The notes beneath the pieces were generated by a model. The model was not told the DNA's origin and did not search any database. It saw only the letters and a program-made list of their open reading frames with translations. 64,000 nucleotides of DNA from Bolinopsis microptera (lineage: Eukaryota > Ctenophora > Tentaculata > Lobata > Bolinopsidae), in contig NC_087079.1 of the NCBI RefSeq assembly GCF_026151205.1, positions 15,004,445 through 15,068,444 on the forward strand, read 5' to 3'. Every line of letters begins with the position of its first letter. Position 1 is the stretch's first letter. The position numbers were made by a program, and so were the translations under genes. Positions 2,729 to 45,900 of this stretch are shown here, in pieces.

Positions 2729-3011
<283 letters not shown>

Positions 3012-3524
3012 GGTTAATCAAGAAGACGGTAAGAGTTACGGGGCTGGTTTTTTTCGGTATAGTGCCGACAAAACTATGAGGAAGCCAAATGATTAAGGTT
3101 TTTTAAATCTGCCGGTGGTAAGTTTTGTACCACAAATGTGACATAAAATGGCTCACATTTTCTTCCTCCTCGCTCTCTCTCCCATTACTGCATATTATGT
3201 AGCGTTGGTAAATATATCATAATTAGGTTAGCCTCGATATATATACTGTCATGACCGCAAACGTCAGATTTATGTACAACTTATAAAGCAATATGATCCC
3301 TTAAATACTTATTTGTAGAGATATTGACAAAAATCAGTTATTTTGGCTACACGCATGAGGAAAGATACCAAATTGGGCAACTACTTTGGTCTTTTTTTGC
3401 CGAGTATTGTGCTCAAGTTATCAAAATGTGCAGTTGTAGATCGGGTGTTCTCTTCCAACATGGGTTTTCGGCATAAATCCAGAAGCACCCGGTTCATGGG
3501 TACATAATTTCTACAAGTTCTTAA

Positions 3525-4700
3525 AGTTAGATCCGGCATGGTGTAAAGTCTATATCATAGTGTTATCTGGTCCTAAAAAGTTGCAAGATATTCAAGTTCA
3601 CCATTTAACGAAGATTGTAGGTTATCTATTATTCTTTACATGATTATTGACTCAACTTCATAGTCGAAACCTGTATTCTTTAAAATATTTAACGGATGGG
3701 CTTTCAAGCTCCAGACAGTAGAAAGGTAGAAGTTGGAGTTCAAGGCATTTACAACTACAGCCTCCAAACCTTTATGAACCACCTAAACGTAAACACTAAA
3801 GAAAAAAAGGGCTGTATGAAGATCGTTAAAATTAGCATGAGGGCATCGTACACCATCTATCTGTCCAGAAACACTATCTATATCGTATGGGCAGATGATT
3901 GGGAGTTAGTCAAGAGGCTAGTAATAGCATAGTAGGAGAGTATTTGGACCCATAAAACATGTTTGATACCGTTATGAAATATGAACCCCTCATAACCGGG
4001 GACTACCATGAAAGTGATATCGCTGTGTCGTTGAAAGACCGTACTACCCGTCAAAGATGTACCTCATCACGACAAGCAGTTATGCTTGTAGGTGAATACT
4101 GAATATGCACTAATATAGTTGAACTACTGTATAATACTCCATTCAAAATAAACCGATTCAAAATATTTAATAATATGAAGTAGCTATTGAATGGTGAAAA
4201 TTCTAATATGGTGAGCAACGAAAGCTCACTTTGGCAATTCATTTACCAATAACGTTTACTTGCAATCAATATAAGATATCACTAAATCTGCGATCCTGAA
4301 GCCCGCAGTCACTGGGCACGAGGTCATTGGGCATAATACTCATTTATGCTCTATAGCACGAAGCACTGCATAGCAGGGCCGGGCACAATTATATTACAAC
4401 GTCCTGGGGTCAGTTTTGTTCCTAAAAATCAGGTGTATGCGTCTTGAATCAGGATGCCATGAATCTGTATAAGTTTTAAGTAGTTTCATTCTACGTTTAA
4501 TATTATTATTTGGTCGTTTACGTTAAAGTTATATTTGACCATCTTATAGCCTCACCCTAAAAAATCCCACTTACTCAATATGTAAAGGCAGGATAACCTA
4601 CAATCTTTGTTTTATTAGTAAACTTGAATATCTTGCAATATCTTGAATATCTAATGCTATAATATAGACTTTAAACCATGCCGGATGTAACTTTAAGAAA
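3525..4700. mobile_element. Foldback/MITE-like element with about 100-bp inverted ends (copy 1)
   Basis: Bases about 3525-3626 and 4592-4700 are imperfect inverted repeats sharing GATCCGGCATGG, TTGCAAGATATTCAAG and AAGATTGTAGGTTATC in opposite orientation. The interior holds a 78-codon plus-strand frame (3696-3932) that I do not recognise. The element is repeated in the second duplication copy at about 7931-9106. Exact ends and target-site duplications could not be fixed by eye. Confidence 0.6.
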
Positions 4701-5002
4701 TCATGGATCTAAAAGAGAATGATGTGGAGGTAAGAGGGGGTATTTAGTAGTTAGAAATCAGATCGATGTAGCGGAAAAAAGCAAACCCTAGCATTTAGTA
4801 AAGAGAGCAAAAAGTGATTTTATAACCAAACTCATACAATTGTCTCGCCCATCGCCTGACATTTTAGGGTTTTTAGCCCCTATCAACTCTAATTTAAAAC
4901 TTAATTGAAGCAAATATTTGTCGCTTTGCCCTTATCAGAGGGTCTATCATTTTGAAGTACAATCGAGATCGGCTTTTATCTCCTCTGAGTAACACAAGTT
5001 AT

Positions 5003-5036
5003 TGCCGACGTTTCGCCCACATGGCTCCTTCAAGTT
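5003..5036 (-). ncRNA. Weak hammerhead-ribozyme-like motif
   Basis: The minus strand reads TTGAAGGAGCC, a short loop, then GGGCGAAACGTCGG. The GAAAC-GTC part and the small stem before it resemble the 3' half of hammerhead ribozymes carried by some retroelements. The first conserved box (CTGATGA) is not intact. The duplicate near 9409-9442 has a substitution in the stem. It could equally be chance. Confidence 0.2.
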
Positions 5037-5544
5037 CAAAGGCGGAAACATATACTTCGTTACGTAATAATGTCCTGGTAAATATCCATATGAAGGTAAA
5101 ACTCTAAATAATAATAATATGGTCTGTTAAAAGGGAAAAGGTTTTAAAATGTACAAAAGGTACAAAAGTTCAAAGCAATAAATTGAGGTTAGGCCATAGA
5201 ATCTAAAATTACTGTCCATTATTTTAGAGCTAAAACTACGCCCACACACAGCGTCCAAATAACAGGTACAACACACAGTGTGACTGTACTTCCTTCTTCC
5301 TATCACTTTCAAGAAATCTTTCGAGGACTTCATATTTGAACGGTTCATCAGGAATTTCTTTTATGTCAGAGTGTGAGATAATTTAAAACGTTTAAAATGA
5401 TACTTCATGCTTGACCCGTGCTGTTCTCTAGAACTTTAAGGGTGTGAATTGTGAATCTAATTTTGCTTAAGCATGAAATCCAGCCCTTCTCGTTGGCTAA
5501 TATTGGTCACGTTATCTATCAGCTGACCGTACCTCGTGACTGGG

Positions 5545-7400
5545 TCACTCGGTGACCACGTGCCCGACTGACTGGTGCCGTACCATAACGTTAGGTGTGG
5601 CTTCTTCAACAATGTCAGGGTGAAGTGTGACGGGTGGGTCTTTATCGATGTTACTTGAACTGTCCAGGTGTGTGGTATCTTCCTTCTCCTGTTTAAAGAT
5701 CAATTCAGCCCCTGGCTCTGATGATACATGAGTCTTTTCTGTAGAAGGCTGATTAGGTGGAGATATGACAGTAACGAGATTTGGTGAATAATTACTACAG
5801 TCATATCTCTTCAGCTTGGAGATATTTACCACCTTTTCTAAGACGAGTCTCAAACTTTGGTTTAGCCGTTTGTTGGTCCGCTCAGCTTCCGATGAAGATC
5901 AACACTCATAAACCATATGTGTATTTGCAGTTCAGAGACTTCAGCACGGCTTGATAGAATGTTGCGCGGAAACCACGGGCATTATCGCTGATTATCTCCC
6001 TCGGGACACCATGAATCAGTACCCATTTATGCATAATCAAAGCAATGTTTTGTTCTGCTTTCTGACTGTTGTTGGCTGTAGCAACAACGTATCCGTAGTA
6101 AGCATCGGTCATGCTGATTGCTGAGGATATTATACTTGTTTCCTGAAGCTGCCAGACCAAGCTTCTCTGGTTCTATGTGGTCTAACACGAGAATGTCGTT
6201 GAATTGATGAGCTATGATGTGCTTTCTTTTGGCCTTGGAGTAAGCCTGCGGTTGTTTTACTCTTCCGCACGTGATGCAAGCTTTGACAAACAACTCTACG
6301 TCTGGGGACATTCCAGGCCAATAATAGTGTCTGCGACTAATGTCCAGTGTCAATTTTATTCTTGGGTGGTTTCCCATCAATGAGGCGTGGCACATCTGCA
6401 GAACGGCTTCTTTATTCTCATCGGGTAAGCAGATAAGCCATACATCTTCCTCCTGCACTTTGTTTTTCACAGGCACCCATTTCCGCATTATAATGCCGTT
6501 CGTTAGTTTCAACAAACTCAATTGTTTGAAGTAAGAAACCATTTCTTTAGGCGCTCTGAATTTTTGAATAGTTGGTGGCTTTTGTCCGTTGAGAAGCCAT
6601 TGCTTGACCACGCTTAAAATGGTGTCGCAACTTTGAGTATTTTGTATCGCTGAGATGAGATCGTCGGAAAAAAGTCGGGCATCTGATCTTCAGGGGACTG
6701 GTTCACTGGAGTTTCAATCGGCGGTGATATTACATTGTTAGGAATGGCATTGACTTTGACTGAACATCAATCAGATTGCACAAACATTTTTCCTGATCCA
6801 GTTTAGGAGGTTGAAGGCTGTGTGTATTGCTGACTCCGTTCAGCTTCAGTGTTTTGTTCCGTTGAGAGAAGAAACTGGGCGGTATGAGCCTCTGATTATC
6901 AGTTGATGTCACTTCCTCAGAGTTATTAGTCGACGACTTTCCATCGTTATATTCAAGTTTAGAGCTATCGTACGTCCCTGTGTGGTTAACCTTACCTTGG
7001 GCAGGTCTCTTCTCTTTTGGTATTCTTTTAAGCTCGTTCTGCGCATCGAAAATCGTAGTAACTCGATTAAAAAATTCTTCGTGCTTTCGTTGTTTCATGA
7101 TTATGAATCTGTGATACGGCTTCGTCCTCTTCGACCGGATCCTTCTCCCGATCGCACTGGGTTGCCACTTCTCTGAACTGTTTCTTGAACGGGAAACGGG
7201 AAATAAAATCAGCAATTGAGTTCTTGGCTCCTGAGAGATGCTCGAAGTCGAAGGAGTAGTCAGCAAGCGCTTATAATATCTTTCTTCTGAGTGTGGGGTT
7301 GTTCTTCGAGAATATCGTGTCGAGCCTGGTGATCAAACAAAGACAGTCAGTTTTAACTTTGAAATGGGTTCCTTTTTGATAAAGTTTCCAAAACTTAAAA
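5545..7400 (-). pseudogene. Ty3/gypsy-like pol relic: RNase H end, integrase and C-terminal part (copy 1)
   Basis: Read on the minus strand, this stretch encodes broken pieces of an LTR-retrotransposon polyprotein. Near 7210-7260 a frame gives the end of RNase H (FEHLSGAKNSIADFISR, the usual H-x-x-G-x-x-N-x-x-A-D-x-x-S-R pattern). Bases 6027-6611 give the integrase zinc-binding H-H-C-C module (GNHP, YYWPGM, CITCGR). Bases 5906-6160 give part of the integrase core, with the D-N-x-x-x-x-F pattern. Bases 5545-5853 give the linker after the core, containing SKLKRYD. Frameshifts and stops separate the pieces, so it is not functional. Gag and LTRs were not recognised. Family assignment is by motif only. 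Confidence 0.8.
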
Positions 7401-10400
7401 GTCTGTCTGTCTGTCTGGGTTAATCAAGAAGACGGTAAGAGTTACGGGGCTGGTTTTTTTCGGTATAGTGCCGACAAAACTATGAGGAAGCCAAATGATT
7501 AAGGTTTTTTAAATCTGCCAGTGGTAAGTTTTGTACCACAAATGTGACATAAAATGGCTCACATTTTCTTCCTCCTCGCTCTCTCTCCCATTACTGCATA
7601 TTATGTAGCGTTGGTAAATATATCATAATTAGGTTAGCCTCGATATATATACTGTCATGACCGCAAACGTCAGATTTATGTACAACTTATAAAGCAATAT
7701 GATCCCTTAAATACTTATTTGTAGAGATATTGACAAAAATCAGTTATTTTGGCTACACGCATGAGGAAAGATACCAAATTGGGCAACTACTTTGGTCTTT
7801 TTTTGCCGAGTATTGTGCTCAAGTTATCAAAATGTGCAGTTGTAGATCGGGTGTTCTCTTCCAACATGGGTTTTCGGCATAAATCCAGAAGCACCCGGTT
7901 CATGGGTACATAATTTCTACAAGTTCTTAAAGTTAGATCCGGCATGGTGTAAAGTCTATATCATAGTGTTATCTGGTCCTAAAAAGTTGCAAGATATTCA
8001 AGTTCACCATTTAACGAAGATTGTAGGTTATCTATTATTCTTTACATGATTATTGACTCAACTTCATAGTCGAAACCTGTATTCTTTAAAATATTTAACG
8101 GATGGGCTTTCAAGCTCCAGACAGTAGAAAGGTAGAAGTTGGAGTTCAAGGCATTTACAACTACAGCCTCCAAACCTTTATGAACCACCTAAACGTAAAC
8201 ACTAAAGAAAAAAAGGGCTGTATGAAGATCGTTAAAATTAGCATGAGGGCATCGTACACCATCTATCTGTCCAGAAACACTATCTATATCGTATGGGCAG
8301 ATGATTGGGAGTTAGTCAAGAGGCTAGTAATAGCATAGTAGGAGAGTATTTGGACCCATAAAACATGTTTGATACCGTTATGAAATATGAACCCCTCATA
8401 ACCGGGGACTACCATGAAAGTGATATCGCTGTGTCGTTGAAAGACCGTACTACCCGTCAAAGATGTACCTCATCACGACAAGCAGTTATGCTTGTAGGTG
8501 AATACTGAATATGCACTAATATAGTTGAACTACTGTATAATACTCCATTCAAAATAAACCGATTCAAAATATTTAATAATATGAAGTAGCTATTGAATGG
8601 TGAAAATTCTAATATGGTGAGCAACGAAAGCTCACTTTGGCAATTCAAACCAATAACGTTTACTTGCAATCAATATAAGATATCACTAAATCTGCGATCC
8701 TGAAGCCCGCAGTCACTGGGCACGAGGTCATTGGGCATAATACTCATTTATGCTCTATAGCACGAAGCACTGCATAGCAGGGCCGGGCACAATTATATTA
8801 CAACGTCCTGGGGTCAGTTTTGTTCCTAAAAATCAGGTGTATGCGTCTTGAATCAGGATGCCATGAATCTGTATAAGTTTTAAGTAGTTTCATTCTACGT
8901 TTAATATTATTATTTGGTCGTTTACGTTAAAGTTATATTTGACCATCTTATAGCCTCACCCTAAAAAATCCCACTTACTCAATATGTAAAGGCAGGATAA
9001 CCTACAATCTTTGTTTTATTAGTAAACTTGAATATCTTGCAATATCTTGAATATCTAATGCTATAATATAGACTTTAAACCATGCCGGATGTAACTTTAA
9101 GAAATCATGGATCTAAAAGAGAATGATGTGGAGGTAAGAGGGGGTATTTAGTAGTTAGAAATCAGATCGATGTAGCGGAAAAAAGCAAACCCTAGCATTT
9201 AGTAAAGAGAGCAAAAAGTGATTTTATAACCAAACTCATACAATTGTCTCGCCCATCGCCTGACATTTTAGGGTTTTTAGCCCCTATCAACTCTAATTTA
9301 AAACTTAATTGAAGCAAATATTTGTCGCTTTGCCCTTATCAGAGGGTCTATCATTTTGAAGTACAATCGAGATCGGCTTTTATCTCCTCTGAGTAACACA
9401 AGTTATTGCCGACGTTTCGTCCACATGGCTCCTTCAAGTTCAAAGGCGGAAACATATACTTCGTTACGTAATAATGTCCTGGTAAATATCCATATGAAGG
9501 TAAAACTCTAAATAACAATAATATGGTCTGTTAAAAGGGAAAAGGTTTCAAAATGTACAAAAGGTACAAAAGTTCAAAGCAATAAATTGAGGTTAGGCCA
9601 TAGAATCTAAAATTACTGTCCATTATTTTAGAGCTAAAACTACGCCCACACACAGCGTCCAAATAACAGGTACAACACACAGTGTGACTGTACTTCCTTC
9701 TTCCTATCACTTTCAAGAAATCTTTCGAGGACTTCATATTTGAACGGTTCATCAGGAATTTCTTTTATGTCAGAGTGTGAGATAATTTAAAACGTTTAAA
9801 ATGATACTTCATGCTTGACCCGTGCTGTTCTCTAGAACTTTAAGGGTGTGAATTGTGAATCTAATTTTGCTTAAGCATGAAATCCAGCCCTTCTCGTTGG
9901 CTAATATTGGTCACGTTATCTATCAGCTGACCGTACCTCGTGACTGGGTCACTCGGTGACCACGTGCCCGACTGACTGGTGCCGTACCATAACGTTAGGT
10001 GTGGCTTCTTCAACAATGTCAGGGTGAAGTGTGACGGGTGGGTCTTTATCGATGTTACTTGAACTGTCCAGGTGTGTGGTATCTTCCTTCTCCTGTTTAA
10101 AGATCAATTCAGCCCCTGGCTCTGATGATACATGAGTCTTTTCTGTAGAAGGCTGATTAGGTGGAGATATGACAGTAACGAGATTTGGTGAATAATTACT
10201 ACAGTCATATCTCTTCAGCTTGGAGATATCTACCACCTTTTCTAAGACGAGTCTCAAACTTTGGTTTATCCGTTTGTTGGTCCGCTCAGCTTCCGATGAA
10301 GATCAACATTCATGAACCATATGTGTATTTGCAGTTCAGAGACTTCAGCACGGCTTGATAGAATGTTGCGTGGAAACCACGGGCATTATCGCTGATTATC

Positions 10401-11788
10401 TCCCTCGGGACACCATGAATCAGTACCCATTTATGCATAATCAAAGCAATGTTTTGTTCTGCTTTCTGACTGTTGGTGGCTGCAACAACAACGTATCCGT
10501 AGTAAGCATCGGTCATGCTGAGGATATTATACTTGTTTCCTGAAGCTGCCAGACCAAGCTTCTCTGGTTCTATGTGGTCTAACACGAGAATGTCGTTGAA
10601 ATGATCTGTGCTTTCTTTTGGCCTTGGAGTAAGCCTACGGTTGTTTTACTCTTCCGCACGTGATGCAAGCTTTGACAAACAACTCTACGTCTGGGGACAT
10701 TCCAGGCCAATAATAGTGTCTGCGACTAATGTCCAGTGTCAATTTTATTCTTGGGTGGTTTCCCATCAATGAGGCGTGGCACATCTGCAGAACGGCTTCT
10801 TTATTCTCATCGGGTAAGCAGATAAGCCATACATCTTCCTCCTGCACTTTGTTTTTCACAGGCACCCATTTCCGCATTATAATGCCGTTCGTTAGTTTCA
10901 ACAAACTCAATTGTTTGAAGTAAGAAACCATTTCTTTAGGCGCTCTGAATTTTTGAATAGTTGGTGGCTTTTGTCCGTTGAGAAGCCATTGCTTGACCAC
11001 GCTTAAAATGGTGTCGCAACTTTGAGTATTTTGTATCGCTGAGATGAGATCGTCGGAAAAAAGTCGGGCATCTGATCTTCAGGGGACTGGTTCACTGGAG
11101 TTTCAATCGGCGGTGATATTACATTGTTAGAATGGCATTGACTTTGACTGAACATCAATCAGATTGCACAAACATTTTTCCTGATCCAGTTTAGGAGGTT
11201 GAAGGCTGTGTGTATTGCTGACTCCGTTCAGCTTCAGTGTTTTGTTCCGTTGAGAGAAGAAACTGGGCGGTATGAGCCTCTGATTATCAGTTGATGTCAC
11301 TTCCTCAGAGTTATTAGTCGACGACTTTCCATCGTTATATTCAAGTTTAGAGCTATCGTACGTCCCTGTGTGGTTAACCTTACCTTGGGCAGGTCTCTTC
11401 TCTTTTGGTATTCTTTTAAGCTCGTTCTGCGCATCGAAAATCGTAGTAACTCGATTAAAAAATTCTTCGTGCTTTCGTTGTTTCATGATTATGAATCTGT
11501 GATACGGCTTCGTCCTCTTCGACCGGATCCTTCTCCCGATCGCACTGGGTTGCCACTTCTCTGAACTGTTTCTTGAACGGGAAACGGGAAATAAAATCAG
11601 CAATTGAGTTCTTGGCTCCTGAGAGATGCTCGAAGTCGAAGGAGTAGTCAGCAAGCGCTTATAATATCTTTCCTCTGAGTGTGGGGTTGTTCTTCGAGAA
11701 TATCGTGTCGAGCCTGGTGATCAAACAAAGACAGTCAGTTTTAACTTTGAAATGGGTTCCTTTTTGATAAAGTTTCCAAAACTTAAAA
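7401..11788. repeat. 4.4-kb tandem duplication, copy 2
   Basis: This is the second copy of the 3011-7400 block, preceded by four remaining CTGT units (7402-7417). Identity is high enough for the same small reading frames to be present in both copies (for example 3696-3932 and 8102-8338). Either the duplication is recent or the assembly placed two haplotypes in tandem. Confidence 0.92.
7931..9106. mobile_element. Foldback/MITE-like element (copy 2)
   Basis: This is the duplicate of the element at 3525-4700, carried along by the 4.4-kb tandem duplication. It has the same inverted ends and the same internal 78-codon frame (8102-8338). Confidence 0.6.
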
Positions 11789-12660
11789 GCGTTGACCAGA
11801 GTGAGTAGTTCTAACTTGGTCTGTCCCCAGTTTGGAGGAATAGACTTTGAAAATTATCCAGCTACTCGCTGTTCACCGTTGATTCTTTGTGATAAGTGGG
11901 CTCCCATCCCAAACTTATTTCCCTCAACAACTAGTTCGTAGGACTGTTCCTTGTCGTGCAGGTCGGGTATACACAAGGTAATGCTGTTCGTCACAGCATC
12001 CTTCAACTTCTGCAGATTTTCTTCACATGCCTGAGTCCATCTGAATGTGACTCCTTTCCGCAATAACTGGTACATACAGTGAGTAAGACCAGCATATTGG
12101 GGAATCCATTTCCGATTGAAACCGAAGAACCCGAGCAAGCTTTGCAGGGACTTTCTATCTGTAAGGGCCTTTAAATCAGTAAGAGCCTTGACCCTGTCTT
12201 TGGTTATTCGCAATCCTTCTCCCGATTGTGTGATTCCGACAAAGTTAACTTCTTTTCGAAGGAATTAGTGAGATCTTCCTGGAGAAAGCTTCATTCCAGC
12301 TGCAGTGAGTCGTTGAAACACTATCTCAAGTCTGGATAATTAAGTGAGAGTATACTGTATCAGATGCTAACAATAAATCGTCTAGGAAGTAGACAATCGT
12401 CTAGGAAGTAGACAATTCCTAAGGCATTCCTGTGGGATACTGAAGGGAAAGGAAGCAGTTCTAACGAGCTCTTCTCAAACACAAGGATATAACTTGTGAA
12501 CTCGGCTAGTATATATGAAACATTTGTCATGGAGTTGTAGAGGGAGTTATGTGCCTCGCCGGGCTAAAGTAGTGGATGACCTTGCTGTACGGCAAGTTAA
12601 ACAAGGATCTGAAACTACTAGGTTTCGTACAGACTCAACTCTGCACCCGTGTCAATATGT
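9949..12660 (-). pseudogene. Ty3/gypsy-like pol relic: reverse transcriptase, RNase H and integrase (copy 2)
   Basis: This is the longer of the two relics. On the minus strand it starts with degenerate reverse-transcriptase sequence: an FLDD catalytic box near 12400, disturbed by a 19-bp duplication at 12376-12413. The RT thumb and RNase H onset follow at 11854-12213, with LLGFFGFNRKWIPQYA and FRWTQACEENLQKLKDAV, typical of Ty3/gypsy connection regions. The RNase H tail (about 11600), the integrase zinc module (10635-11000), the integrase core (10310-10585) and the C-terminal linker (9949-10257) come after it. Stops and frameshifts interrupt it throughout. The part after 11788 is unique to this copy. 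Its upstream end fades out around 12.6 kb. Confidence 0.82.
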
Positions 12661-15815: not shown

Positions 15816-16094
15816 AATAACGTGACAAGGTTGTCTCGCATTAAGACTCATCGAAAGTAGTTCAGCAGGTATATATTTAAGTTTAAGGTATATATTTAAG
15901 TTTAAATCATTATAATTCAATGTTAAAGGTGACAGGAATAAGAAATAGTTATGCGGAGGTTTTTAATGTTTAAGAAATTTGCGCAAAATACGCGCCATGA
16001 GCAGCAGCTGTCATTCCGCTGAATCTCTATTCTATTATATGTTTATATATGTTTATGAACATAATAGCCTGAGGTCCCTTAACGGGTGATACTC

Positions 16095-17060
16095 GTAAAA
16101 TATCTGTTCCATATATTGACCGGCGCGCGTCCTGGTAGGTTGTAAACCTACAAGAGGTCCCCAGGTAAAAAAATATAAAAGCATATCCAACCATCAAACA
16201 TTATGTTACAGTTAAAAGCATCGAATTTTGCCCCATTTTGCTCTATTTTGATTATTTTATCAAGCAACTCCAATATCCACCAAATTTTTCGGACAGTTGT
16301 AGATAAAAAGTTGTCATACGTTGTATGACCCGCCGCGCACGAAGTGCGCGGCTCCCCCTGTAGCGTCGAAGACCGTGGGGGTCACCACGTGATACAAATA
16401 AAAAGCCCTATTGAAAGGTTTTCACAAATTTTCAGAATGATCTCATTTAAGGAACTAAAGATATGACAGAATAATACGACAAAAATCAACGAATTTTGTC
16501 AAATTACGCGACTTTTACACATAACATACTTTTGCTCAAAAAACCGCGCACGTCACCATCAAACATGGCACGAGTATCACCCGTAAAATATCTGTTCCAT
16601 ATATTGACCGGCGCGCGTCCTGGTAGGTTGTAAACCTACAAAAGGTCCCCAGGTAAAAAAATATAAAAGCATATCCAACCATCAAACATTATGTTACAGT
16701 TAAAAGCATCGAATTTTGCCCCATTTTGCTCTATTTTGATTATTTTATCAAGCAACTCCAATATCCACCAAATTTTTCGGACAGTTGTAGATAAAAAGTT
16801 GTCATACGTTGTATGACCCGCCGCGCACGAAGTGCGCGGCTCCCCCTGTAGCGTCGAAGACCGTGGGGGTCACCACGTGATAAATATAAAAAGCCCTATT
16901 GAAAGGTTTTCACAAATTTTCAGAATGATCTCATTTAAGGAACTAAAGATATGACAGAATAATACGACAAAAATCAACGAATTTTGTCAAATTACGCGAC
17001 TTTTACACATAACATACTTTTGCTCAAAAAGCCGCGCACGTCACCATCAAACATGGCACC
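16095..17060. repeat. 488-bp tandem repeat, two copies
   Basis: The unit starting GTAAAATATCTGTTCCAT at 16095 is repeated at 16583 with only a few changes and ends near 17060. Each copy contains a GC-rich hairpin, GCCGCGCAC-GAA-GTGCGCGGC, embedded in AT-rich DNA, and a GGTCCCCAGG motif also found at the ends of the neighbouring inverted-repeat element. Confidence 0.9.
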
Positions 17061-36900: not shown

Positions 36901-39900
36901 GGAGATTTAATGGGGTGTAAATATAATCCGGATATTGAGGGGCAGCTAATTGGCTGACGTCTAGACACGTGATATTGAGGGGCAGCTAATTGGCTGACGG
37001 CTAGACACGTGATATTGAGGGGCAGCTAATTGGCTGACGGCTAGACACGTGATATTGAGGGGCAGCTAATTGGCTGACGGCTAGACACGTGATATTGAGG
37101 GGCAGCTAATTGGCTGACGTCTAGACACGTGATATTGAGGGGCAGCTAATTGGCTGACGTCTAGACACGTGATATTGAGGGGCAGCTAATTGGCTGACGG
37201 CTAGACACGTGATATTGAGGGGCAGCTAATTGGCTGACGTCTAGACACGTGATATTGAGGGGCAGCTAATTGGCTGACGTCTAGACACGTGATATTGAGG
37301 GGCAGCTAATTGGCTGACGTCTAGACACGTGATATTGAGGGGCAGCTAATTGGCTGACGTCTAGACACGTAATATTGAGGGGCAGCTAATTGGCTGACGT
37401 CTAGACACGTAATATTGAGGGGCAGCTAATTGGCTGACGTCTAGACACGTGATATTGAGGGGCAGCTAATTGGCTGACGTCTAGACACGTGATATTGAGG
37501 GGCAGCTAATTGGCTGACGTCTAGACACGTGATATTGAGGGGCAGCTAATTGGCTGACGTCTAGACACGTGATATTGAGGGGCAGCTAATTGGCTGACGT
37601 CTAGACACGTGATATTGAGGGGCAGCTAATTGGCTGACGTCTAGACACGTGATATTGAGGGGCAGCTAATTGGCTGACGTCTAGACACGTGATATTGAGG
37701 GGCAGCTAATTGGCTGACGTCTAGACACGTGATATTGAGGGGCAGCTAATTGGCTGACGTCTAGACACGTGATATTGAGGGGCAGCTAATTGGCTGACGT
37801 CTAGACACGTGATATTGAGGGGCAGCTAATTGGCTGACGTCTAGACACGTGATATTGAGGGGCAGCTAATTGGCTGACGTCTAGACGCGTGATATTGAGG
37901 GGCAGCTAATTGGCTGACGTCTAGACACGTGATATTGAGGGGCAGCTAATTGGCTGACGTCTAGACACGTGATAAGATGAGTGTCTGTGAGCATGAAAAG
38001 GGAGTGGAAGGGAGAAGCTCTAGCTCCCAGCAAAATTAGAAATTGAGAGAGTAAAATGGGAGGATCAGGACTGTAGCTCGCGTTATATCCCCTTATATGG
38101 GCACCACGTGGCAGTAACGCCTACTAGATACATACTTTATTTCATGGTATTAACTAACCTATCTACTACCTATTACAACCTATTTATTGATTTGTTTTAG
38201 TCTACCCTCTAAACGTAGGCTCTTAGTCTAGACGCTGCTCAGTAGAATGCCGTGTGGTTTAGTAATTCTGGGCAGATCCGTATTAAACTTGCAGGGTTCA
38301 TGTTTTGGTATTAGACAAACTATAAACTACCAACATTATGTATAACTATAATATAGAGTGACTAGGTGAAACCCGCATCAATATTGTGATGTGATTCTTG
38401 CAGCCCGTGCCCAATTATTTTATTACGAGTTACTATTCCAGGTACATGATGCTTAATTAGTTAATTGAGTATCAGTAATCTTATTCCTCTTGTTGAACTT
38501 CTGTACTCTTCGAACTACAGGCCAGATAGCGTGAGGAAGTTTGACAAACTATAATTTCTCGAAACTATAACAGTACACTACTACAGTGCGTACGCGTATT
38601 ACAAGCCTGCAGCTGACGTACTTATACATATCATTAATACGTTAATGGTATAATTAACCAATAACCAGGACCCGAAAAAACCTAAGGGATCTATAATACT
38701 ACTTCTACTTTCTTTGTAGTGCAGGTTGCTTGACGTAACATGAATAATGTATTTGGGATTATTTAAATCACAATCACCATCCCTCCTTCAGCTGAAAGAA
38801 CGAAACAATGTAGCATCAAGCAGCCAATAATCTTGCCTTACAGCGATCATATAAAACAATGACAATTTTAGATTCCAATTGCGATTTCATTTTGGCAAAT
38901 ACGACAACCCCGTACGGCCAGTTCGCAGATTAAAGGTTTAATGTTCTTGCCTCTACTTTATCTCCTGATATCCAGAGTCATAGCAAGACATCAGCTGCTC
39001 AACCTCACCCGAATGTCCGAGCTATCCGCAGACCACCGGCGTCCTTCAACGTCCCTCCGCTCAACCAGCGTTACGAGCGGTTAACATGCTCAGGACGTGA
39101 ACAAAGAGAGATCACAGAGTATAACTTGTGGAGAGACGGGGCCTGGTTGTAGCCTCCCTCGGGGAAACATCTAGAGACGTTACCACCAGGCTAACCACCG
39201 TAGGTATGCTAACGAGACATCAAAACTCGCACCTGTCAACAACAAGACCACCCCTGGGAGCAACTTCCTGTTTGTTTCATTTGCCACAACAGGAGTAGAT
39301 TTGATGGTTTCTCAGTTGTCTTGATGACGAGTGTGGGTGTGATCAGGAACATTTCAAGTGCGCACGTGGGGAAAGGGTGCATCATGTTAATCAAGGTAAA
39401 TTACAAGTAGAAATAGAAGCTGAGATCACTACATGGTTTTTGTGATCTCTCAACTGCAGTCAACAGAGTTTTGAAAGTCTTGAGTTGCGGCTTTTGGCAA
39501 AATATTTTAATTGTATTAATTATAATATCTTATCAGGTGTGTGATACAGAGGGTGACTGTGCGGATGTAGTGCGAGTGTCCTGCAGTCTTTTCAGTGATG
39601 TTCAGCAAACTTTGCTGCACCCCCCCCCCCCCGGGTTAGTGATGTGTGTTGGGGTTATGAGGAGTAACTGCTCTTTTCAATCATACCGCTAAGCACCAAA
39701 GTTATCCAGGAAAATCAGGCAGATAACCAAAAGGACGGCAGCTCTAGGGGAACAAGTCGCACTGTAAACGAGGGCCATTGCAAGGTATCCCAGTTCAAGT
39801 TCCAGTTTTCAAGAGGTACAGCTACAGGCACCCTGACGGGATTACCCATGAATATTAGCTTGGAATTAATTAATCTATTAAGGAGAAAGCCCAAGCTTAC

Positions 39901-42900
39901 AACTGCCAGATTCCACTTTCATAGAGCTACACAGACCACTTGTACAAGCGATACTGCAACGGGCGAGAGAAACTGGTATAAATGTGATTGTCGAGCAGCA
40001 ACTGTCCTCATTATTCTATGCAAGTCTGACAGTAAGGCCCATCCCTAAGGAGTTGGTGTGTGACAGGGTCCCCACCTCTGCCACCGACTCCTTCTGTTGA
40101 ATGCCAGGGACCGTCCAGGCCAAGGGTATTCTCTTCCAGGGAGAACATTGTTGGGAAACAAGGGACTCGAGTTTATTATAGTATTCCAGATCGTGCTCTA
40201 CTGTTGGTTGAACGGATTGCGGGTCGCTTCCCAACACAAACGTGCAAGTTAACGGGCCTAAGTACGGGATAGATCAGTCCTGTGTTTTAACCTCCTTATT
40301 CTATGACCTCCAGATGTGCACTTATCTTCCTGATCTTCACATGATGCAGCTAGATTACAGAGGGGTGTTCAGCGAGCAATGAACTGACTGGAGGGCATCC
40401 AATCTGTGTCAGATAAGTGGGTTCCTGTCTCTTTCTCAACTAATGGTTCCTTGAAGGGTGGTCTTCTTAACGAGCAGTAGCGGGTTTTTGGCGTTAAAGA
40501 TTCCCTTTTCAGATGGGATCTAAAAAGGCTAAAAGTTTGCTGTGCTTGCTTGGAGTGATGAATGTAGCTAACTTGGTACTATTCCTTCTTCCAATCATCT
40601 CCACAAAGTTTAGATTAGCCCTCTCCCCGACATGTTCCTTTATGAATATTTCTTGACCAACAATCCCTTCATTGCAAGGGAAACAAGGCGGATTTGGCAT
40701 TTGTACTTTCTGCATACATGAAAATAACCTTCAAGAAAAAGTCTTTCCATAACAATTCAAACCTTACAGATTCTCACAAAGACGAGGAGTTTGTATCGAG
40801 AGGGTTCCATCTTCACAACCAAGCACATCAAATAATCGGTTTACTACGGCAAATCCTCAATGTGTTATCCCGACCTGTTCTCTGGACCGACCAGAATCTT
40901 TAGTTCAAAGTGGTATTATCATGACAGTGGTGTTTGAAGAAATGTGTGCATTGGGTTATGTTACCGGCTGATCCTCGTCACTTCAAGATGAGCAGTCTGG
41001 AGGTAGGTAAAGACTCTCATATCTTCTGACCATCTGTTCTTTCTGTCAGCTAAAGTTTACCCATTTCCTCATCACTGCTCAGATACTATCCTGGGTACCT
41101 ATGTCATGGCGATGATTTACATCTGGGGGTGGCATAAGTGCAGTTGTTTTTGATGAGTTGGTTATAGCTGTAATTTCCCTGCTTTCTCTGGCCTTAATCC
41201 CTGACTTACACTGCATCGTCAAAACCGACATGTTCCTTTATGAACATTTCTTGACCAACAATCCCTTCATTGCAAAGGGAAACAAGGCGGATTTGGCATT
41301 TGTACTTTCTGCATACATGAACATAACCTTTCAAGAAAAAGACTTCCATAACAATTCAACCTTACAGATTCTCACAAAGCTGAGGAGTTTGTTCGAGAAG
41401 GGTTCCATCTTCACAACCAAGCACATCAAATCAATCGGTTACTACGGCAAATCCTCAATGTGTATCCCGGATCTGTTCTCCAACCGACCAGAACTCTTTA
41501 GGTTCAAAGTGGCTATTATCATTACAGTGGTGTTAGAAATGTGTGCCATTGGGTTATGTTACCTGCTGATCCTCCGCCACTTCAAGATGAGCAGTCTGGA
41601 GGTAGGTAAAGCTCTCAAATCTTCTGACCATCTGTTCTTTCTGTCAGCTAAGGTTTACATCCTCATCACTGCTCAGATACTATCCTGGGTACCTAATGTC
41701 ATGGCGATGATTTACAGTCTGGCGGGTGGCAAAGTGCCAGATGTTTTTGATGAGGTGGTTATAGCTGTCATATCCCCTGCTTACTCTGTCCTTAATCCCT
41801 GTCTTCACACTGACATCGTCAAAAGAGTGGTCACTTTCGGGAGAGGGGTGGTCGTGATGTGGCGCAGCAGAAATGGTAAAAATTGTCAGCCGAGGGAAGA
41901 TCAACTAACCACCAAGGATGGTCTGGTAATGGTAAGATTGGAAATGATCAAAAATGTTGAAATTGATGATGGTATAAGTTCACCAAATGACATCGAGAAA
42001 GAGGAGAATGTTAGAACAGATCCTTCCGACATAAAAGAGATAAAGAATCATGACTGAAGGTGAACAGTAGTGAAACCCTTGGACTTTATTATGGGTGGTA
42101 GACACTGATTACACTAGGAGTACAAGTACGAAGAAATACCGTCAAGACAGTGCTGCTATCTATATTCTGGGATACTGAATACACGATAGACACCAATTTT
42201 TATATATTGAACAGGTTTTTAAAAATTTTCGGAGTTCAATTTTTGATTAGATTTCTTGCATAAAGCATAAAATAATTTTATCAAGTGGGATTGAAAAGTG
42301 GTAAAGAAATACCATCACGCTTTTTCAAACTTATGATTATAATATGTAACTCTGTAATGCTTTTAATTTTACGATCTTACGATTTCAGTTCAAAGAGGTC
42401 AACAAATTATGACGGAAAGCTTTTTCATGCAATTGCTGTCATTTGATCAAACGTTTTATAATCTTGGATTTAATCTGTTGAAATAAGAGTCACGTTTCAA
42501 TTTGAAGATCTGGGAGTATTGTGTCGTCTCTGAAACAATGTAGCAACAAGCAGCCAATAATCTTGCCTTACAGCGATCATATAAAACAATGACAATTTTA
42601 GATTCCAATTGCAATTGAGTGCATTCCCATTTTGGCAAATTTGATTGGTCATCACCACAAATCCCTGACGCCGGGATCTGAGATAATTACAACAACTCCG
42701 TACGGCCAGTTCGCATATTAAAGCTTTAATGTTCTTGCTTCTACTTTATCTCCTGATATTCAGAGTCATTGCAAGACATCAGCTGCTCAACCTCACCCGA
42801 CTGTCCGAGCTATCCGCAGACCACCGAGAGTCTTTCAACGACCTCCTGCTAAACCAGCGTTACGAGCGGATAACATGCTCGGACGTGAACCAAGAGAGAT

Positions 42901-45900
42901 CACAGAGTAAAACCTTGTGGAGAGAGCGGGGCCTGGTTGTAGCCTCACCCGGGAAAGATCAAGAGACGTACACCAGGCTAACCACCGTAGGGTATGATAA
43001 CGAGACACAAACTCGCACCTGCCTCAACAACAAGACCACCTCTGGAGCACTTCCTGTTTGTTTCATTGCCACAACAGAGAGATGTGATGGTTTCTCCAGT
43101 TGTCTTGATGACGAGTGTGGGTGTGATCAGGAACATTTCAAGTGCGCCAGTGGGGAAGGGTGCATCACTGTTAATCAGGTGAAATTACAAGTAGAAATAG
43201 TAAGCTGAGATCACTACATGTTTTTGTGCTCTCTCAACTGCAGTCAACAGTGTTTTGAAAGTCTTGAGTTGCTGCTTTTGGCAAAATATTTAATTGTAAT
43301 AATTATAATTATCTTATCAGGTGTGTGATAACAGAGCTGACTGTGCGGATGCTAGTGACGAGTGTCCCTGCAGCTCTTTTCAGAGTTGTATCAGCAACTT
43401 TGCTGGTAGTGAAGTGTGTGGGGTTAGGAGGAGTAACTGCTCCTTCAACTCATCCGCTCAGCACAAAGTTATCCAGGAAATCAGGCAGATAACAAAGGAC
43501 GGCAGCATCTACGGGAACAAGTCGGCACTGAACGAGGCCATTGCAAGGTATCCCAAGTTCAAGTTCCAGTTTTCAAGAGTTACAGCTACAGGCACCATGA
43601 CAGGATTACCCATGAATATTAGCTTGGAATTAATTAATCTATTTAAAGAGAAAGGCCCAAGCTACAACTGCACAGATTCCACTTTCATAGAGCTACACAG
43701 ACCACTGTACCAAGCGATCTGCAACGGGGAGAGAAACTGTATAAATGGAATTGACGAGCAGCACTGTCCTCATCTATTCTACTGCAAGTCTGACAGTAAG
43801 CCCATCCCTAAGGAGATGGTGTGTGACAGGGTCCCACACTGCACCGACTCCTCTGATGAATGCCAGGACTGTCCAGGCCATGGTATCTCTTCCAGGGAGA
43901 ACATTGTTGGGAACAAGGGACTAGAGTTTATTATAGTATTCCAGATCGTGCTCATACTGTGGTTGAACGGATATGCGTGTCGCTTCCAACACAAACGTGA
44001 AGTTAACGGGCCTAAGATACGGATAGATCAGATCCTGTGTTTTAACCTCATATTCTATGACCTCCAGATGGCCACTTATCTCCTGATCATCACATGGAAG
44101 CAGCTAGAATACAGAGGGGTGTTCTGCGAGCATGAAACTGACTGGAGGGCATCCAATCTGTGTCAGATAAGTGGGTTCCTGTTCTTCTTCTCAACTAATG
44201 GTTCCTTGCAGGTGGTCTTCTTAACGAGCATTAGCAGGGTTTTTGGCGTAAAAGATTCCTTTTCAGATGGATCTAAAAAGGCTAAACAGTTTGCTGTGCT
44301 GCTTGGAGTGATGAATGTAGCTAACTTGGTACTCTCCCTTCTTCCAATCATCTCCACAAAGTTAGATAGCCCTCTCACCGACATGTTCCTTTATGAACAT
44401 TTCTTGACCAACAATCCCTTCATTGCAAAGGGAAACAAGGCGGATTTGGCATTTGTACTTTCTGCATACATGAACATAACCTTTCAAGAAAAAGTCTTCC
44501 ATAACAATTCAACCTTACAGATTCTCACAAAGCTGAGGAGTTTGTTCGAGAAGGGTTCCATCTTCACAACCAAGCACATCAAATCAATCGGTTACTACGG
44601 CAAATCCTCAATGTGTATCCCGGACCTGTTCTCTGACCGACCAGAACTCTTTAGGTTCAAAGTGGCTATTATCATGACAGTGGTGTTAGAAATGTGTGCC
44701 ATTGGGTTATGTTACCTGCTGATCCTCCGTCACTTCAAGATGAGCAGTCTGGAGGTAGGTAAAGCTCTCAAATCTTCTGACCATCTGTTCTTTCTGTCAG
44801 CTAAAGTTTACATCCTCATCACTGCTCAGATACTATCCTGGGTACCTAATGTCATGGCGATGATTTACAGTCTGGCGGGTGGCAAAGTGCCAGATATTTT
44901 TGATGAGGTGGTTATAGCTGTCATATCCCCTGCTTACTCTGTCCTTAATCCCTGTCTTCACACTGACATCGTCAAAAGAGTGGTCACTTTCGGGAGAGGG
45001 GTGGTCGTGATGTGGCGCAGCAGAAATGGTAAAAATTGTCAGCCGAGGGAAGATCAACTAACCACCAAGGATGGTCTGGTAATGGTAAGATTGGAAATGA
45101 TCAAAAATGTTGAAATTGATGATGGTATAAGTTCACCAAACGTCATCGAGAAAGATGAGAATGTTAGAACAGATCCTTCCGACATAAAAGAGATAAAGAA
45201 TCACATGACTGAAGGTGAACAGTAGTGAAACCCTTGGACTTTATTATGGGTGGTAGACACTGATTACACTAGGAGTACAAGTACGAAGAAATACCGTCAA
45301 GACAGTGCTGCTATCTATATTCTGGGATACTGAATACACGATAGACACCGATTTCTATATATTGAACAGGTTTTTAAAAATTTTCGGAGTTCAATTTTTT
45401 ATTAGATTTCTTGCATAAAGCATAAAATAATTTTATCAAGTGGGATTGAAAAGTGGTAACGAAATACCATCACGCTTTTTCAAACTCATGATTACAATAT
45501 GTAACTCTGTAATGCTTTTAATTTTATGATCTTACGATTTCAGTTCAAAGAGGTCAACAAATTATGACGGAAAGCTTTTTTATGCAATTGCTGTCATTTG
45601 ATCAAACGTTTTATAATCTTGGATTTAATCTGTTGAAATAAGTGTCACGTTTCAATTTGAAGATCTGGGAGTATTGTGTCGTCTCTGAATCATTTGTTCC
45701 GAAGGTTTTGGTAATTGGTACCAAACTGTATCGGATAAAAAGTATGGTACACTGGTTTAATGTTATTTAAAACTACAAGAGCAGTATTCAATTTGAATAT
45801 TAGATTTTAAATGACCTTGACAACCTAAAAAACAAAAATATCCCTCTTTCGAAAACTGAAGGAGCTAATAAAACATCCAAGTATGTACTGAGTAAGAAGG

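Follow-up and report, generated by a model that had tools for sequence, protein, structure and literature searches.

A broken upstream receptor copy in the Bolinopsis microptera genome is almost certainly a noisy sequencing read placed in an assembly gap

How should a frame-broken gene copy lying beside an intact one be read in a long-read assembly? Besides pseudogenes left by tandem duplication, two kinds of assembly product are pertinent. The Vertebrate Genomes Project report names false duplications where contigs meet, and sequence left unpolished where reads prefer the better copy (PMC8081667). The gap-closing tool TGS-GapCloser gives each gap the best-scoring long-read fragment after error-correcting the candidates, and its authors caution that small shared overlaps lead to alignment errors (PMC7476103). 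The second process concerns Bolinopsis microptera, a ctenophore with a genome of 265 Mb in 13 chromosomes (largest 26.2 Mb, N50 20.8 Mb; PMC11797021), because its published methods name PacBio reads, wtdbg2, HiRise, TGS-GapCloser 1.1.1, Purge Haplotigs, and pilon, with gap closing placed before pilon (PMC10232365), a series of steps by which a fill of this kind could be left behind. CLR and HiFi libraries are named there jointly for the species studied; we take the B. microptera library to have been CLR, because the sponges were assembled with hifiasm (PMC10232365). The assembly (265 Mb) is larger than the k-mer estimate of ~254 Mb (PMC10232365, PMC11797021), which leaves room for false duplications.

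The assembly that we analyzed comprises 264.65 Mb in 232 contigs (346 scaffolds and 38.5% GC in the published table; PMC11797021); 13 contigs of 15–26 Mb hold 97.5% of the bases (97.23% in 13 scaffolds according to PMC10232365). Its largest contig is 26.2 Mb and its N50 20.8 Mb, and the only other contigs examined, C14–C16, are below 0.2 Mb. Our window, the whole 64,000-nucleotide stretch under analysis, has a GC content of 39.7% for the window alone. Self-BLAST reveals a direct duplication within it, with an upstream copy X1 (38802–42537) and a downstream copy X2 (Table 1). X1 falls into three pieces—a clean 82-bp start, a noisy middle, and a clean end. The first two (38802–41224) match X2 42532–44977 at 88.5% identity, with 99 mismatches and 193 gap bases, while the end (41224–42537) matches 44377–45692 at 98.3%, with 21 mismatches and 2 gap bases. 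At 41224/41225 the sequence steps back: the noisy middle ends at the equivalent of X2 44977, and the clean end starts at the equivalent of X2 44378, leaving ~600 bp present twice, as an overlap with the next contig that was not merged. An earlier note, made from the letters alone, had recognized the backward jump and the 600-bp repeat; the repeat stands, and the jump lies at 41224|41225 rather than where the note had put it. X1 is joined cleanly to its surroundings on either side, with a 3-base GAA common to both copies where it meets X2. About 1 kb upstream of X1, the window also holds a clean tandem array (36931–37974; 80-bp unit, ~13 copies).

Table 1. Positions of the duplicated unit and its parts in the window
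Feature	Position	Strand	Basis
X1 clean start	38802-38883	+	1 substitution in 82 bp vs X2; left contig extends into the copy
Noisy fill, X2-like, dense single-base indels	38884-41224	+	Alignment, error spectrum, alleles in the overlap
Fill end within the overlap (X2 equivalent, 44378-44977)	40627-41224	+	Cleanly repeated by 41225-41824
X1 clean 3' part	41225-42537	+	98.3% identity to X2 44378-45692
X2, whole duplicated unit	42532-45692	+	Self-BLAST
X2 gene, exon 1 (150 aa)	42729-43178	+	Open frame, GT donor at 43179
X2 gene, exon 2 (634 aa + stop)	43321-45225	+	Open frame; Ldl_recept_a + 7tm_1

How noisy is the middle piece, and where does the noise begin and end? It tracks X2 42614–44977 with about one difference per 12 bases. 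A global alignment of 38802–41224 with X2 contains 77 substitutions, 67 insertions (60 of a single base), and 58 deletions (52 of a single base), and differences occur in every 200-bp bin. The dense single-base indels that had been reported for 38.8–41.2 kb relative to 42.5–45.0 kb are thus real (125 indel events at 88.5% identity), as is the long poly-C run, which consists of 13 C at 39620–39632 within a 17-base insertion. Total noise is ~8.5 events per 100 bases, spread irrespective of coding status: 45 events per kb in the UTR (the 82 clean bases counted in), 58 in the intron, and 95 and 86 in the two exons. Its limits are sharp. The onset lies near 38884, the single substitution in the first 82 bp having P = 0.007 at the noisy rate, and the larger deletions (8, 27, and 21 bases) all follow directly after it; on the other side, the 125 indel events of the noisy part compare with 1 in the clean end of X1 (p = 3e-23).

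The kinds of change differ as well. Transitions make up 16 of the 77 noisy substitutions but 13 of the 21 clean-end ones (p = 0.0007), and 8 of 48 when only isolated substitutions, with no other event nearby, are counted (p = 0.0004); only 4 of the 77 are C>T or G>A. Single-base insertions double a neighboring base in 46 of 60 cases, where 44% is expected (p = 4e-7), and such insertions are usual for PacBio polymerase reads. Single-base deletions, however, show no enrichment in runs (22 of 52, 44% expected), which counts against a read-error origin. Strand asymmetry is weak, with p < 0.05 in two of seven tests, uncorrected. The overall rate and the near-equal numbers of insertions and deletions are compatible with CLR reads without being diagnostic of them. 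A neutral-decay spectrum spread over the whole copy is not what we find, given the 16 of 77 transitions and the concentration of indels in one part.

Are such patterns common in the neighborhood? Our repeat control covered 264 contiguous kb—the window plus 200 kb upstream, on which the base rate rests—and yielded 35 local direct-repeat matches of at least 300 bp, 33 of which, with at least 80% identity, were listed. Gap openings ranged from 0 to 10.6 per kb in 24 of the 33 and reached 43–44 in the two matches of the noisy copy; seven, from two low-complexity arrays, had 37–59. These two stretches resemble the noisy fill, and more such fills may exist. One, at C8:14964110-14965060 (~40 kb upstream of the window), is a CT-repeat array of 0.8 kb broken by numerous irregular single-base interruptions, adjoined by GGCCATGGCC-type repeats that seemingly carry single-base changes too; it may be another unpolished stretch. 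The other, at C8:14931730-14932293, is made up of ~26 tandem 21-bp units that are by turns exact and altered by single-base indels (37–40 gap openings per kb), either an unpolished read or real variation. Cleaner duplications are also present. An abutting 4.4-kb direct duplication at 2995–11789 of the window (99.2% identity, 17 mismatches, 4 gap openings) is either the product of recent tandem duplication or an allelic overlap left unmerged. Another, of 1.27 kb and 98.0% identity, starts upstream of the window (C8:15003814-15006341), and its end is visible within it as 1–634 / 1265–1897. A third, of 481 bp at 16091–17059, has 99.0% identity, 7 bp between its copies, and no indels.

What does the unit encode? 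The X2 gene is intact in the assembly, with two exons and 784 aa. Exon 2 matches the LDL-receptor class A domain (PF00057, Ldl_recept_a; E = 6.5e-8) and the rhodopsin-type seven-transmembrane domain (PF00001, 7tm_1; E = 2.5e-7), the latter barely above its cut-off (30.9 vs 30.5 bits); with both domains over the Pfam cut-offs in one open protein, X2 is a predicted LDLa-7TM receptor. Exon 1, for which 42729–43181 was searched, had no Pfam match at E ≤ 0.001. Over 1311 columns, the clean end of X1 differs from X2 by 21 substitutions and a single 2-bp deletion; 11 of the substitutions affect coding sequence, 5 of them synonymous and 6 nonsynonymous, and the frame is open, but the deletion, near 42049, alters and shortens the C-terminus. 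In the genome, the X2 exon-2 protein has 71 listed matches on all 13 large contigs (C1–C13), mostly at 24–44% identity, and thus appears to belong to a large 7TM-type family in B. microptera; the matches, for which the best 70 of 471 first-look candidates were scored, are not gene counts. This family serves as a control: 65 of the 71 matches contain no stop codon and three contain one or two, and the three that fall in the noisy copy contain 24, 19, and 3.

Which sequence was read to give the noisy middle? Within the 600-bp overlap, clean X1 and X2 differ at eight sites. At six of them the noisy stretch agrees with X2, at one with X1, and at one with neither; at this last site the alignment is shifted, and by eye it matches X2. 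With the error rate set to 1, 3, or 5%, X2 is favored over X1 as donor by odds above 10^8, even when the "neither" site is excluded. What had been taken for a clean re-reading of the same segment is therefore two readings with different alleles. Nor is the repetition almost perfect, as had been claimed: the noisy piece is only 91.3% identical to the clean re-reading (91.4% by self-BLAST), and the near-identity to X2 belongs to the clean re-reading. If all eight isolated transitions were real, the divergence of the fill from X2 would be at most ~0.55%, and the same sum gives ~1.1% with all 16 transitions; the clean end of X1 diverges by 1.6% (21 of 1311 columns). Judged by these alleles, the noisy fill reads like X2, or like a haplotype resembling X2, joined onto another allele or copy. 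Because of its X2 alleles, it does not read like the missing half of X1 and says nothing sure about the X1 interior. The expectation that the upstream gene is probably intact is consequently unsupported as stated, and the gene that is certainly intact in the assembly is X2. A third copy elsewhere was considered as donor and is unsupported: the 598-bp piece has three genome matches, all in the window, in a search that skips very common words and so is no proof of absence. By the same search, the 1845-bp upstream part has 12 matches, the two long ones in the window and the other ten, of 50–137 bp at 71–86% identity, outside it.

X1 might still be a genuine second gene of full length, read noisily to give the fill, with X2-like alleles at its 3' end derived from the other haplotype or by gene conversion. 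We consider this unlikely: the left join is clean, with 38000–38801, which had no other match in the genome search, running into 82 clean bp, and so is the X1/X2 join with its shared GAA, but the fill prefers the X2 base six to one at the diagnostic sites, and its scarcity of transitions holds it closer to X2 than the clean end of X1 is.

We therefore favor a raw or barely corrected PacBio CLR fragment, from X2 or an X2-like haplotype, as the very probable source of 38884–41224, put between two contigs by the gap closer. The fragment's insertion would belong to the gap-closing step, and ~600 bp of it, lying over the beginning of the right-hand contig, would have been retained, producing the stutter at 41224/41225. 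The fill would probably have stayed unpolished as accurate reads mapped better to X2 and the clean X1 end; by analogy with the vertebrate assemblies, short reads of the gene that mapped to either place may have left it noisy. The use of a long-read gap closer is documented for the assembly and not for this particular gap. Moreover, since the tool as published corrects its fragments, the noise requires that correction was off or failed here, which counts against a gap-closer origin. The stretch could alternatively be an unpolished contig end or assembler consensus. The Vertebrate Genomes Project does describe unpolished sequence and homotype duplications at contig boundaries (PMC8081667), but noise flanked by clean sequence to its left and right, with the overlap unmerged, is more insert-like, and we regard this origin as improbable. 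That an upstream tandem copy truly decayed and also duplicated 600 bp internally has a negligible probability: tandem copies do decay and reading through the noisy copy meets those 24, 19, and 3 stops, but indels exceed substitutions, transversions exceed transitions, the noise stops at one point with the remainder of X1 almost indel-free, and the "decayed" part carries X2 alleles that its own continuation lacks.

The excess of indels, the few transitions, the neighbor-doubling insertions, the sharp limits, the X2 alleles, and the family control together make the broken upstream copy almost certainly a noisy sequencing read placed in an assembly gap and not a decayed gene. The earlier note had proposed just such an unmerged noisy long-read fill in place of a pseudogene, and the spectrum, the limits, the family control, and the gap closer in the published method bear it out. 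It is an ordinary assembly artefact. How many copies does the animal have? The clean joins at either end of X1 and the GAA shared where it meets X2 lean toward a genuine tandem duplication on one haplotype or more, although a pair of contigs that overlapped and were put end to end could give the same picture. One tentative scenario, which we rate as possible but doubtful, is that the animal sequenced has unequal copy numbers on its two haplotypes, with a recent LDLa-7TM tandem duplication on one haplotype and a single X2-like gene, read as the fill, on the other, so that the assembly blends both into an apparent pseudogene. It is safe to say that the noisy middle is evidence neither for a pseudogene nor for a second intact gene.

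Thus, the upstream copy is neither to be listed as a pseudogene nor cited as proof that a second gene exists, and errors would arise at this locus in gene counts, pseudogene lists, and copy-number claims for the receptor family. Where only the assembly is to hand and not its reads, a pasted read can be flagged by its share of transitions, its neighbor-doubling insertions, and its alleles in an unmerged overlap. A title-level literature search returned nothing on this locus among the matches listed, which does not establish its absence from print.

How, then, does the locus compare with described systems? Like the homotype false duplications in the Vertebrate Genomes Project report (PMC8081667), it has a second copy beside the first at a contig boundary, of lower consensus quality and of about read length or less. 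Unlike them, no N gap is left, and the outer parts (38802–38883 and 41225–42537) are clean. Because they are clean and 41225–42537 is 1.6% off X2, part of the X1/X2 duplication may be real or allelic; the noisy part has the X2 base at those six of eight sites, and the clean X1 end differs from X2 at 21. With a TGS-GapCloser fill (PMC7476103), the locus shares a single long-read fragment between two contigs and an unresolved contig–fragment overlap; it differs in that the published tool corrects the fragment, whereas ~8.5 differences per 100 bases remain here. A pseudogene left by tandem duplication would likewise be an adjacent copy with a disrupted reading frame, but the spectrum, the sharp limits, and the donor alleles found here are at odds with decay.
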